DNA of 64,000 bases from assembly GCF_000178995.1 (NCBI RefSeq), contig NZ_ADVZ01000001.1:1-64000 (forward strand), given 5' to 3'. The translations under genes were made by a program, and so were the position numbers. Positions 43,998 to 48,999 of this stretch are shown one piece after another. Each line of letters begins with the position of its first letter. Position 1 is the stretch's first letter. This DNA is from Afipia sp. 1NLS2 (lineage in GTDB: Bacteria > Pseudomonadota > Alphaproteobacteria > Rhizobiales > Xanthobacteraceae). The notes under the pieces were generated by a model. That model was not told the DNA's origin and did no database searches. It was given only the letters and a program-made list of their open reading frames with translations.

Positions 43998-44795
43998 TCA
44001 GCTCTTCACCAGCACCGGGCCGGAACCAGCCGGACGCTCGTTCTCGATCAGGATGCCGAGGCGCTTGGCGACTTCGGTATAGGCTTCAAGCAGTCCGCCG
44101 AGATCGCGGCGGAAGCGATCCTTGTCCATCTTCTCGTTCGACTTGATGTCCCACAGCCGGCACGAATCCGGCGAGATCTCGTCGGCGACGACGATGCGCA
44201 TCATCTCGTTTTCGTAGAGGCGGCCGCATTCCATCTTGAAGTCGACGAGACGGATGCCGACGCCGAGGAATACGCCCGAGAGGAAATCGTTCACGCGAAT
44301 GGCGAGCGCCATGATGTCGTCGATCTCCTGCGGCGTCGCCCAGCCGAACGCGGTGATATGTTCTTCGGACACCATCGGATCGCCGAGCTGGTCGTTCTTG
44401 TAATAGAACTCGATGATCGAGCGCGGGAGCTGCGTGCCCTCCTCGATGCCGAGGCGCTGCGACAGCGAGCCTGCGGCGACATTGCGGACCACAACCTCAA
44501 GCGGCACGATCTCGACCTCCCGGATCAACTGCTCGCGCATGTTGAGCCGCTTGATGAAATGCGTCGGCACGCCGATCTCGTTCAAATGCTGAAAAACGTA
44601 TTCCGAGATCCGGTTGTTGAGGACGCCCTTGCCCTCGATGACCTGGTGTTTCTTGGCATTGAACGCGGTGGCGTCATCCTTGAAATGCTGAATCAGGGTG
44701 CCAGGCTCCGGTCCTTCATAAAGAACCTTGCCCTTGCCTTCGTAGATGCGACGCCGACGGCTCATTGGGATGTACCGAGTGTTGTTGAAATCCAT
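43998..44795 (-). CDS. purC: Phosphoribosylaminoimidazole-succinocarboxamide synthase
   Basis: 265 residues. [20 protein letters not shown] near residue 17, [20 protein letters not shown] near 82, [20 protein letters not shown] near 124, and the [12 protein letters not shown] motif near 209. It makes SAICAR from CAIR and aspartate. ATG 44795 is the track start; ATG 44765 (MSRRRR) is also possible and close to the usual N-terminus. First gene of the operon. Confidence 0.95.
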
Positions 44796-46119: not shown

Positions 46120-47301
46120 TCAGGCGCTTTCGAGACGTTTCAACTCCGCCTCAAGATCGCGCTCTATATCGGCAGCCCGCAGTGCGACCACGCGATAGCC
46201 CCGCTCGGCGAGCCATGCGCCCCGGGCAGCACGCTCGCGGACAACAGCGTCACCTTCCTCCGGGTGAACAATCTCAACCGCCATCCGCCGGGGAAACGAG
46301 ACAAAATCGGGAATGTGGCGGCCGACCGGCGTTTGCCGCTTGAACTGCGCGGCGAAGCGGCGGTCCTTGGTCAGCGCCTGCCACAGGATGCGCTCGGCAT
46401 CGGTCGGATTGCGGCGTAGGAGCCGCGCCAGTCCTCGCACGGAACTCGATCTACCCTCCGTTGCAGGGGAACCCTGCTCCGCCAACAGCGCCCGTAGCTG
46501 CGTGGCCTGAGTTCCATCGAGCACCCCACCCTTGGCCGGACCCTTGCGGCCCTCGGCAATCGCCATGACCACCCCATGCAGAGTGTGCATGTCCTGTTTA
46601 CTCGGCTCCATCCTACTGAAAATATTACGTAAATTAACCAGCATCACATCGCGCTTCTCGGCCGGACGCAGAAATTCCACCTTGTCGAGTTCCGCGACCA
46701 GATTGTCGAAAAACGCCTGCATCTGATGCTGGGAAGCCGGCTCGGAGCGTTCTGGCATTGAAAATGGTATCATGCCACCGGACGCGAGCTTGAACCACTC
46801 GTATCCCATCAAAAGCACGGCCTGGGCCAGATTGAGCGAGGCAAATCCGGGATTGACCGGGAAGGTCACGATCCGGTTGGCGAGCGCGACCTCCTCGTTG
46901 GTCAAGCCTGAACGCTCTCGTCCGAACAGGATGCCCGCTGTTATGTCCTGCGCGGTCCCCTCGACGATCTCTCGGGCAGCAGCGTCCGGCGCGACCACTG
47001 GCTTAGCCTGATCATGTGCGCGGGCGGTAGTGGCGAACAGCAGCGCGCAATCCGCCACCGCCGCCTCGACCGTCTCGAACAACTCCACCCGTTCCAGAAT
47101 GTGATCGGCGCCCGCCGCCGCCCGCTGGGCCGCCATATTCGGCCAGCCGTCACGCGGCTTCACCAAACGTAAACGTGTCAGTCCGAAATTGCCCATGGCG
47201 CGCGCGGCCATGCCGATGTTCTCGCCAAGCTGCGGCTCCACCAGCACCACCACGGGGCCCGGCAGATCGGTGCGCGGCTTGGTCTTGTCGGTCCCCGACA
47301 T
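46120..47301 (-). CDS. trmJ: TrmJ-type tRNA 2'-O-methyltransferase fused to a DUF559 (PD-(D/E)XK-like) domain
   Basis: 393 residues from ATG 47301. Residues about 15-170: SPOUT methyltransferase with VVVLVEPQLGENIGMAARAM near 17, LFATTARAHD near 88, GILFGRERSGLTNEEVALAN near 121 and VNPGFASLNLAQAVLLMGYE near 145; it would methylate tRNA position 32. Residues about 275-393: DUF559-like, with ARLLRRNPTDAERILWQALT near 277, RFAAQFKRQTPVGRHIPDF near 298 and GYRVVALRAADI near 367. In DUF559 the core is usually EVDGxxH; here EIVHPEEGD replaces it, so nuclease activity may be lost. Standard TrmJ lacks this tail. The longer ATG at 47346 is less likely. Confidence 0.9.
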   Translation of the reverse strand: MSGTDKTKPRTDLPGPVVVLVEPQLGENIGMAARAMGNFGLTRLRLVKPRDGWPNMAAQRAAAGADHILERVELFETVEAAVADCALLFATTARAHDQAKPVVAPDAAAREIVEGTAQDITAGILFGRERSGLTNEEVALANRIVTFPVNPGFASLNLAQAVLLMGYEWFKLASGGMIPFSMPERSEPASQHQMQAFFDNLVAELDKVEFLRPAEKRDVMLVNLRNIFSRMEPSKQDMHTLHGVVMAIAEGRKGPAKGGVLDGTQATQLRALLAEQGSPATEGRSSSVRGLARLLRRNPTDAERILWQALTKDRRFAAQFKRQTPVGRHIPDFVSFPRRMAVEIVHPEEGDAVVRERAARGAWLAERGYRVVALRAADIERDLEAELKRLESA

Positions 47302-47314
47302 GTCTTCGCTTTCC

Positions 47315-47508
47315 GATTCAATGGCTGAAGCGTCTGCATCAACCATCGAAGGTGGTGATTCAAGCCCTCAAGGTGCTGAATCAAGCCGTGAAGGCATTGA
47401 ATCAACCCAATAAGATTTTGATTCAGAAGGCGAACAATCGGAATCAACGTCTGAAGACGATGATTCAAGCGCTTAAGAAGTTGAATCAACTTCTGAAGAA
47501 AGCGATTC
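47315..47508. repeat. Phased 21-bp array with GANTC in nearly every unit
   Basis: Between trmJ (start 47301) and icd (47782), GANTC occurs at 47315, 47357, 47378, 47399, 47420, 47441, 47462, 47483 and 47504. The one gap at 47336 reads GCATC. Spacing is exactly 21 bp (two helical turns) in ten units, each beginning G-A/C-T/A-T-C-A-A/G. GANTC is the CcrM methylation site in alphaproteobacteria. Open frames cross it on both strands and read as heptads rich in Leu, Ile, Asn and Gln, but no gene is supported. 47505-47781 holds two further GANTC at 47599 and 47607 and no gene. Confidence 0.9.
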
Positions 47509-47781
47509 AACGCCCGCTGGCGGCGGAAAATCGCCGCAAAACGGCGCCCGCTAGGCCTCAAATTCGATTGTAATCGGAATGGGTTACGGAACCCTTTTGA
47601 ATCGCTGATTCCGCCCCGGCAAAGGCACGCTCCGGCACGACCTATCGCCTCCTGATACCGCCTCGAAAATCCCGTCCGGCATGCTGCTTTGAGCTGCCTT
47701 CCGCCGCCGTTCCGCGGGTGCTAAGAGGCGCGCATTCCTCGGTACCACACTCCAAAAACCTCAAAAAAGGCACGCATCCTC

Positions 47782-48999
47782 ATGGCCAAAATTAAGGTAG
47801 CCAACCCGGTCGTCGAACTCGACGGCGATGAGATGACCCGGATCATCTGGCAGTACATCAAGGACAAGCTCATCAACCCCTTCCTCGATGTGAAGCTCGA
47901 ATATTACGACCTCGGGATGGAATACCGCGACAAGACCAACGATCAGGTCACCATCGACGCGGCCAACGCGATCAAGAAGCACGGCGTCGGCGTCAAGTGC
48001 GCGACCATCACCCCGGACGAGGCCCGCGTGAAGGAATTCGGCCTCAAGGAGATGTGGAAGTCGCCGAACGGCACCATCCGCAACATCCTCGGCGGCGTCA
48101 TCTTCCGTGAACCGATCATCTGCAAGAACGTGCCGCGCCTCGTGCCGGGCTGGACCAAGCCGATCATCATCGGCCGCCATGCCTTCGGCGATCAGTATCG
48201 CGCCACCGACATCAAATTCCCCGGCAAGGGCGTTCTGACGATGAAGTTCGTCGGCGAGGACGGCTCCGTGATCGAGCGCGAAGTCTTCAAGGCCCCGGGC
48301 GCCGGCGTCGCCATGAGCATGTACAATTTGGACGACTCTATCCGCGATTTCGCCCGCGCCTCGATGAATTATGGCCTGTCACGCGGCTATCCGGTGTACC
48401 TGTCGACCAAGAACACCATCCTCAAGGTGTATGACGGCCGCTTCAAGGACATCTTCCAGGAGATCTACGACGCCGAGTTCAAGTCGAAGTTCGAGGCCAA
48501 GGGTCTGACCTACGAGCACCGCCTGATCGATGACATGGTAGCCTCGGCGCTGAAATGGTCCGGCGGCTATGTCTGGGCCTGCAAGAACTACGACGGCGAC
48601 GTTCAGTCCGACACCGTGGCGCAGGGCTACGGTTCGCTCGGCCTGATGACCTCGGTGCTGCTGACGCCAGACGGCAGCGTGGTGGAAGCCGAAGCCGCTC
48701 ACGGCACGGTAACTCGCCACTACCGCGAGCACCAGAAGGGCAAGGAAACCTCGACCAACTCGATCGCGTCGATCTTTGCGTGGACGCAAGGGTTGGCCCA
48801 CCGCGCCAAGCTCGACAACAACGCCGAACTGGCGAAGTTCGCCAAGACGCTGGAGAAGGTTTGCGTCGATACCGTCGAAAGCGGTTTCATGACCAAGGAT
48901 CTGGCGCTGCTGGTCGGCCCCGACCAGAAGTGGCTTTCCACCACGGGCTTCCTCGACAAGGTCGCAGAGAACCTCACCAAGGCGATGGCCACCGCCTAA
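47782..48999 (+). CDS. icd: NADP-dependent isocitrate dehydrogenase
   Basis: 405 residues, the eukaryotic-like dimeric type common in alphaproteobacteria. [20 protein letters not shown] near residue 13, [19 protein letters not shown] near 93 (substrate-binding Ser/Asn/Arg), [20 protein letters not shown] near 208, [19 protein letters not shown] near 250 and [20 protein letters not shown] near 304 for cofactor binding. It decarboxylates isocitrate to 2-oxoglutarate with NADP. A terminator follows 35 bp downstream. Confidence 0.96.

Follow-up and report, generated by a model that had tools for sequence, protein, structure and literature searches.

What is a phased run of GANTC sites for when it lies beside a central metabolic gene? 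The question is raised by positions 47315..47508 of the window, by which we mean the whole stretch of 64,000 nucleotides of Afipia sp. 1NLS2 DNA that was analysed. Ten 21-bp steps of the unit TTGAWTCA-N5-STGAAG follow one another there, with cores at 47315, 47336, 47357, 47378, 47399, 47420, 47441, 47462, 47483 and 47504. A preliminary description of this DNA had counted nine GANTC sites and one GCATC over ten consecutive steps of exactly 21 bp, and the site positions bear this count out. The single degenerate core, GCATC at 47336..47340, belongs to a step that is likewise degenerate in three relatives (loci L004, L005 and L012); after it come eight unbroken steps, 47357..47508, whose core centres read T A A T A T A T. 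None of these features is assigned a strand. Every intact core of the array is GAATC or GATTC. The A/G-rich stretch that had been reported after each site can be refined to two features, an A next to the core in nearly every unit of the window and a second conserved element, STGAAG, at unit positions 13-18.

The chance of such spacing had been called negligible, and simulation agrees. Among 100 simulated 64-kb sequences (first-order Markov), the best count per ten 21-bp steps was 2 in 67 and 3, the maximum, in 33, against 9 in the array. Across periods 5-59 no other unbroken GANTC run of at least 3 sites was found in the window, save for the 42-bp harmonic. A BLAST search of the own genome found no second copy of the array (the best other match covered 27 bases, E 4.96), and no plasmid match was found. 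GANTC sites in bulk showed no clear sign of 21-bp phasing outside the arrays in the own genome or in genome G465: 464 kb of the former held 4 GAWTC pairs at 21 bp beyond the array, where the mean for a distance was 1.7 pairs, and 400 kb of the latter held one such pair beyond the known loci. At 44690, inside the open reading frame 43998-44795, which we take to be purC, one isolated site reached a top score against the consensus. No description of such phased arrays was found among the matches listed in a search of the full-text literature, whose coverage leaves out most subscription journals.

The flanking genes, which we take, as did the preliminary description, to be trmJ (tRNA methyltransferase, 46120..47301, minus strand) and icd (isocitrate dehydrogenase, 47782..48999, plus strand), determine how far the array is non-coding. 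The likely trmJ start is the ATG ending at 47301, which gives a protein beginning MSGTDK and leaves 14 bp between the gene and the array; with this start the interval is non-coding, as had been stated. A longer in-frame reading from the ATG at 47346 would place the first two sites within the gene, and for those two the statement would then fail. At its other end, in 46120-46500, the trmJ frame runs into a C-terminal extension that presumably represents a DUF559-type domain. From the end of the array to icd there are about 270 bp. They hold two extra GANTC sites, at 47599 and 47607, that are out of phase with the array, and a block at 47562..47612 (no strand assigned) that contains GGGTTACGGAACCC and TTGAATCGCTGATTC; resembling blocks were read by eye between the array and icd in several relatives. 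A weak terminator-like hairpin lies on the plus strand at 47581-47594, one such site being found against a mean of 1.0 in shuffles.

A search of relatives, which the preliminary description had called for, found the array, with its spacing kept, in most members of the genus. At E<=1e-4 the sequence-only model R1 (72 positions, 26 sequences) matched 26 of the 29 genomes of the genus, in one neighbourhood each. All 25 of the matched genomes that could be placed carry the array beside icd and/or trmJ; the match in G043 was not placed. The three genomes without a match are G002 and G023, in which no icd match was present, and G009, which retains a single TTGAATCAA. icd was located in 37 of the 41 genomes searched. 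Among the 22 genus loci with icd-upstream sequence, those on the minus strand being turned before comparison, 20 had at least three GANTC sites at 21-bp steps or multiples of them. The exceptions were L006, with one TTGAATCAA, and L021, from a genome in which a shortened array of two GAWTC sites 21 bp apart lies beside trmJ, about 2.1 kb upstream of icd. Where other genes separate icd and trmJ, the array is found with icd, with trmJ, or divided between them (L007, L166, L048). Runs of at least three GANTC sites at 21, 42 or 63 bp occurred in 39 of the best 80 of 303 trmJ loci, many of them a three-site version immediately before the trmJ start. Array matches were also seen on the other side of icd, at its 3' end, in genera g48 and g40 (L145 and L344, the latter by eye).

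Comparison of orthologous units, base by base, identifies what is conserved. Over 37 orthologous unit columns the minimum number of changes was 0 at G3, 1 at A4, 0 at the centre, 2 at T6, 1 at C7 and 1 at A8, against 8-19 at positions 10-12, 20 and 21. In pairwise counts between species groups, where the pairs are mutually dependent, 10 of 495 sites of the GANTC core differed (0.020), as did 59 of 396 comparisons at its outer bases, 81 of 495 in TGAAG, 130 of 495 in the free spacer (0.263) and 486 of 2303 at icd fourfold sites (0.211). Free spacers thus diverge about as fast as icd fourfold sites, and the core GAWTC with its following A barely changes. By eye, individual spacers persist between close species; since units keep their own spacers, the array is not a product of repeat homogenisation. 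The phased DNA platform of the preliminary description is in keeping with these data, the spacing being kept in relatives and the cores strongly constrained.

CcrM accepts any N in GANTC, and its methylation site had been put forward as the selected feature. Among 82 units anchored by both neighbours alone, the central base was A in 45 and T in 37, and never C or G, where units of CcrM promoter arrays would have any base; the base after GAWTC was A in 79 of the 82, where the K of the GcrA consensus YGAKTCK requires G or T. With A or T at the centre of all 82 units and no centre change over the 37 columns, the conserved sequence is TTGAWTCA-N5-STGAAG and not GANTC generally. Selection acts on GAWTCA with a fixed centre, not on the CcrM recognition sequence by itself, and together with the lack of bulk 21-bp phasing of GANTC this speaks against methylation sites as the thing selected, although methylation may still play some part.

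The main alternative to a chromosome-level role, which we consider unlikely, is local regulation linked to the cell cycle: upstream of icd and trmJ, the array would bind a MucR- or GcrA-like regulator whose binding depends on CcrM methylation or blocks it. The array does sit between divergent genes, and each intact core includes a CcrM site. In L007, where trmJ is elsewhere, the array remains with icd, and at many Bradyrhizobium-type loci it lies just before the trmJ start. According to the available parts of the sources, methylation of GANTC across the genome reaches 99.77% in free-living B. diazoefficiens (PMC4840208), and in Caulobacter and Sinorhizobium GANTC sites are occluded by MucR (PMC5172544). 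However, a centre restricted to A/T does not suit regulators for which it would be any N (CcrM) or part of YGAKTCK (GcrA). If local regulation were right, the case would be unusual: a phased array serving regulation and overlapping nine CcrM sites, placed ahead of a gene of central metabolism.

A degenerate repeat-protein gene had been offered as another possibility. As 21 bp equal seven codons, the product would be a small heptad-repeat protein (LxQxLKx) encoded on the plus strand, which we regard as extremely improbable. In the window, as in L004, L005, L011, L012, L016 and L025, the array does contain one plus frame that is free of stops, but this frame is interrupted by stops or spacing shifts in L015, L017, L018, L022 and L024, and a minus frame is also stop-free in the window array. 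The nearly invariant G3 and T6 are third codon positions of the heptad frame, and this frame prefers CAA, whereas icd and trmJ jointly use CAG 22 times and CAA twice (for asparagine they use AAT, the less used codon, 10 times and AAC 16 times). In addition, FemAB_like genes contain the motif in another frame, GAA-TCA; that this frame differs from the open frame of the icd locus argues for selection at the DNA level. The repeat-protein gene was rejected, as the open frame is not maintained across relatives and the cores are nearly invariant at third codon positions. The array is a DNA-level element.

The unit is not confined to icd and trmJ. With R1 at E<=1e-3, arrays were detected in 64 of 296 family genomes (232 of 296 without), and at E<=1e-4 in 60 of 397 order genomes and 26 of 141 genera (337 of 397 genomes without); these counts are lower bounds, as samples of more than 40 genomes were run with stricter filters that lose weak arrays. 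That most genomes had no detected array means either that weaker sites were missed or that the system is dispensable. A second sequence-only model, R2 (63 positions, 29 sequences, at most one locus per genome used in building it), matched four genomes besides the own one in a class-wide sample of 387 at E 1e-4, three of them in family f60. In a phylum-wide sample of 249 genomes, of which the number outside this order was uncounted, all 15 matched genomes belonged to the order. In f60, the R2 matches at L208 1480-1660 and L209 1380-1560 lie amid several GANTC sites and the word TTATCCACA, presumably DnaA-box-like and possibly part of an origin region.

Sequence read at the other loci again showed the unit TTGAWTCA-N5-STGAAG, in varied gene contexts. 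In FemAB_like genes (PF04339) units sit in frame within the 5' part, where they encode E-S-x-x-E heptads. Close to the start of the gene, two GAWTC sites 21 bp apart were present at 7 of 29 FemAB_like loci (G067, G505, G145, G161, G540, G131 and G101) and at none in five same-genus genomes, the own genome included; the count was made without the protein pattern for the gene start, which failed at 14 of the 29 loci. The FemAB_like protein is uninterrupted in G014 and G338. Units were further found within a YcjX-like gene (PF04317), within an RsmB/F-like gene, between convergent genes, and at a terminase/portal junction (L193 and L205, 1481-1554). Of 162 same-strand neighbouring strong sites, 105 were spaced at 21 bp, and 27 further neighbours were on opposite strands; the dominance of 21 bp is partly ascertainment, because the models enforce this distance.

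Several details of these loci are recorded here. The YcjX-like (DUF463) in-frame insert of genus g115 has GAATCA at 21, 36 and 33 bp (L323, L328, L333, L337 and L341), and L185, from another genus, carries the insert in a three-site version, the Pfam assignment being made on L185 alone. The array of L193 and L205 lies between genes for a terminase large subunit and a phage portal protein (Pfam, L193 only), possibly in a gene transfer agent cluster. A GANTC pair with a 9-bp step, GATTC-N4-GACTC or its reverse, adjoins array matches at L322, L324, L329, L339 and L343, in two genera. The words CACTTTAA and TTAAAGTG recur beside arrays at L319, L358, L184 and L200 (g115). Finally, G223 has two near-identical clusters of GATTC sites, L355 and L356, probably carried by a repeated element.

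Units that lie within genes or between convergent ones at unrelated loci, and that are spread non-randomly over the chromosome, argue against local regulation. With units at unrelated loci, within genes and in one chromosome zone, the timing of icd or trmJ that had been suggested as the function is not supported.

The same recurrence could come from a dispersed selfish or neutral 21-bp repeat that spreads into permissive sites such as gene 3' ends and protein loops, an account we find improbable. Inserts of 21 bp, a whole number of codons, would keep the reading frame, and the in-frame FemAB_like inserts (7 of 29 genomes, 0 of 5 same-genus), the inserts in the YcjX-like gene and the patchy presence across genomes are what it would lead one to expect. 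However, units are kept one by one with near-frozen cores and diverging spacers, being neither homogenised nor decaying; they occupy one strand and one zone across unrelated lineages; and the own genome offers no second copy beyond the 27-base match.

To place the loci on the chromosome, rsmG was used as the origin marker and a proxy for the origin, and |f| denotes the genome fraction from rsmG. R2 matches at E<=0.01 were merged within 5 kb, and the icd/trmJ arrays were excluded. Strands were taken from R2 only, since the strand call of R1 is unreliable (the units are near-palindromic, and the two models clash at G465:88346). The 49 non-icd loci, from 14 closed or nearly closed genomes, lie on both arms at |f| 0.219-0.470, with 0, 0, 10, 36 and 3 loci in successive tenths of |f|. 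All but one of them (48 of 49) are on the strand opposite rsmG, the single counted exception being G558:3362628. Genus g115 contributes 33 of the 49 loci, from seven genomes and with many loci orthologous; outside it, 16 of 16 loci agree in zone and strand. In G558 and G614, genomes absent from the first scan, 6 of 7 loci agree. Of 45 loci that were read (three in G558 and one in G614 are left out), 23 had at least three GANTC sites at 21 or 22 bp, 15 had a pair and 7 had no such pair; the zone-and-strand count thus takes in 22 loci, of the 45, that are pairs or looser clusters. The 23 stricter loci, eight of them outside g115, are all opposite rsmG at |f| 0.260-0.403.

The count omits weaker or opposite-strand matches within 5 kb of a better one (G465:1921781, for instance, has both strands) and eight genomes with rsmG on another contig or unscanned (G526, G469, G075, G646, G377, G440, G505 and G317). 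Weaker matches that disagree in strand include G145:1671403, G586:947773 and G205:1504998. As a control, GAATC was present in 20 of 20 sampled stretches of G465, 193 times on the plus and 231 times on the minus strand. Moderate sites in the same genome numbered 50 on the minus and 23 on the plus strand, and one good single site was on the other strand, at f -0.455.

In 12 genomes the icd/trmJ arrays themselves were placed at |f| 0.275-0.394, some on one arm and some on the other. In those genomes R2 at E<=0.01 found icd/trmJ arrays only, plus G215:3021214, which was left out of the 49 (E 0.0025, within coding sequence) and whose strand would have agreed. That the icd array falls in this zone may reflect no more than where icd happens to lie. 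The zone also mostly avoids the innermost terminus, which counts against a system for the terminus half. The icd/trmJ array is the sole strong array found in the window's genus, and a domain-wide system would be expected to have more than one array neighbourhood per genome.

GAATC and GATTC are reverse complements of each other, which makes the unit asymmetric. At the icd locus neighbouring cores alternate between the two in 46 of 59 steps among 13 distinct genus strings (shuffle mean 34.3, sd 3.5; 46 reached in 2 of 20,000 shuffles), and with one representative per group in 50 of 63 steps (reached in 3 of 20,000 shuffles). At non-icd loci only 9 of 89 neighbour steps alternate. The unit is therefore mostly head-to-tail elsewhere, with the core flipping at icd.

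Alternating cores are also what an RNA element would want, in which adjacent GAATC and GATTC cores pair to form tandem leader hairpins; we judge this very unlikely. Folding of the region does beat shuffles on both strands (z -4.70 and -4.06), and a hairpin with a UUCG- or CUCG-type loop is readable upstream of trmJ in L035 and L053. Spacer complementarity, however, was not clearly above that of swapped halves (Watson-Crick pairs 262 against 246, sd 9.4; G-U pairs 81 against 95), positions 9 and 1' showed no pairing preference by eye (A-T 40, A-C 20, G-C 12, G-T 14), alternation is nearly confined to icd, and Rfam gave two chance-level matches and no family of note. The hairpin model, which the alternating cores had prompted, found no clear support in spacer complementarity or in positions 9 and 1', the alternation of the centres being the one sign of covariation in stems. 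In L035 and L053, both Bradyrhizobium-type, a long inverted repeat with that loop is built from the pair of units ahead of trmJ.

The constraint on core and phase, the indifference to gene context and frame, the zone and the strand, all of them computed here, as are the unit itself and its recurrence at unrelated loci, make a chromosome-organising, protein-binding array the simplest account. We therefore favour, tentatively and at somewhat less than even odds, a DNA-level binding platform that belongs to an order-wide family and organises or marks the terminus-side half of the chromosome, rather than regulating icd or trmJ. Each 21-bp unit would span two helical turns and bear a single asymmetric site, TTGAWTCA-N5-STGAAG, an arrangement in which multiple copies of a putative sequence-specific protein could be aligned on one face of the helix and bind cooperatively. 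Arrays, pairs and looser clusters may together mark or organise the terminus-side half, working like matS or ZapT sites, and the overlap with CcrM sites could couple occupancy to replication timing. A more specific version, which we hold with a little less confidence, is a polar chromosome-wide site system in Hyphomicrobiales: phased arrays of TTGAATCA-N5-STGAAG, present in the terminus-side half on either arm and on one global strand, would give the chromosome a clockwise or anticlockwise sense, and the window array would be a bidirectional version at an icd locus that can be on either arm. The alternating cores at icd suggest, without proof, that the array keeps working when the locus changes arm. 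To our knowledge, a clockwise or anticlockwise sense of the chromosome is used by no known segregation, termination or domain system. As far as we know, terminus-side organisation is a largely open field outside enterics and Caulobacter. If the platform reading is true, the arrays provide a sequence handle on it in rhizobia and their relatives, and one-strand polarity over both arms would, as far as we know, be new.

Among known systems, the phylogenetically closer one is ZapT, a terminus-binding MerR-family protein of Caulobacter. Most of its ten ChIP sites fall within open reading frames, all but one lie in the terminus or its flanks, and no consensus motif was found for them (PMC7188993, in the parts available). 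The present sites are likewise discrete, on the terminus side and partly inside genes, but they have a consensus and form 21-bp arrays, whereas ZapT sites lack a consensus and the available text of PMC7188993 reports no such arrays. The E. coli matS is a 13-bp motif with 23 sites in an 800-kb domain (PMC3330122), and MatP is confined to enteric bacteria (PMC7188993), both as given in excerpts of these papers. The resemblance lies in a short motif recurring at scattered terminus-side loci, 49 of 49 here at |f| 0.219-0.470 from the rsmG proxy. The present sites, in contrast, form phased arrays, are nearly all on one strand and lie mostly outside the innermost terminus; matS sites are unpolarised.

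For sites controlled by CcrM, GcrA or MucR, the excerpted text of PMC7987155 gives the GcrA consensus YGAKTCK and identifies no consensus motif for Caulobacter MucR1/2. The present arrays share with them the GANTC in each intact core and differ in the A/T centre, the STGAAG element, the 21-bp phasing and the occurrence within genes and at their 3' ends. Rickettsia palindromic elements are palindromic repeats in frame inside genes, with near-identical dispersed copies per genome. They and the PARCELs resemble the present units as palindromic repeats that are in frame within genes. A mobile repeat of the Rickettsia type is not supported by the own genome, where no near-identical dispersed copies were found. 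PARCEL units encode 25 residues and are tied to mobile elements in some taxa (PMC2996958, in the portion available). The unit described here has 21 bp, is phased and is zone-restricted.

KOPS are FtsK-orienting motifs whose orientation flips at dif. The present sites share with them, as motifs named in the accessible part of PMC3140498, a strand bias with chromosome-wide order, but they do not flip between the arms and are opposite rsmG in 48 of 49 cases on both. One strand over both arms fits neither matS and ZapT well, nor motifs that flip at the terminus.
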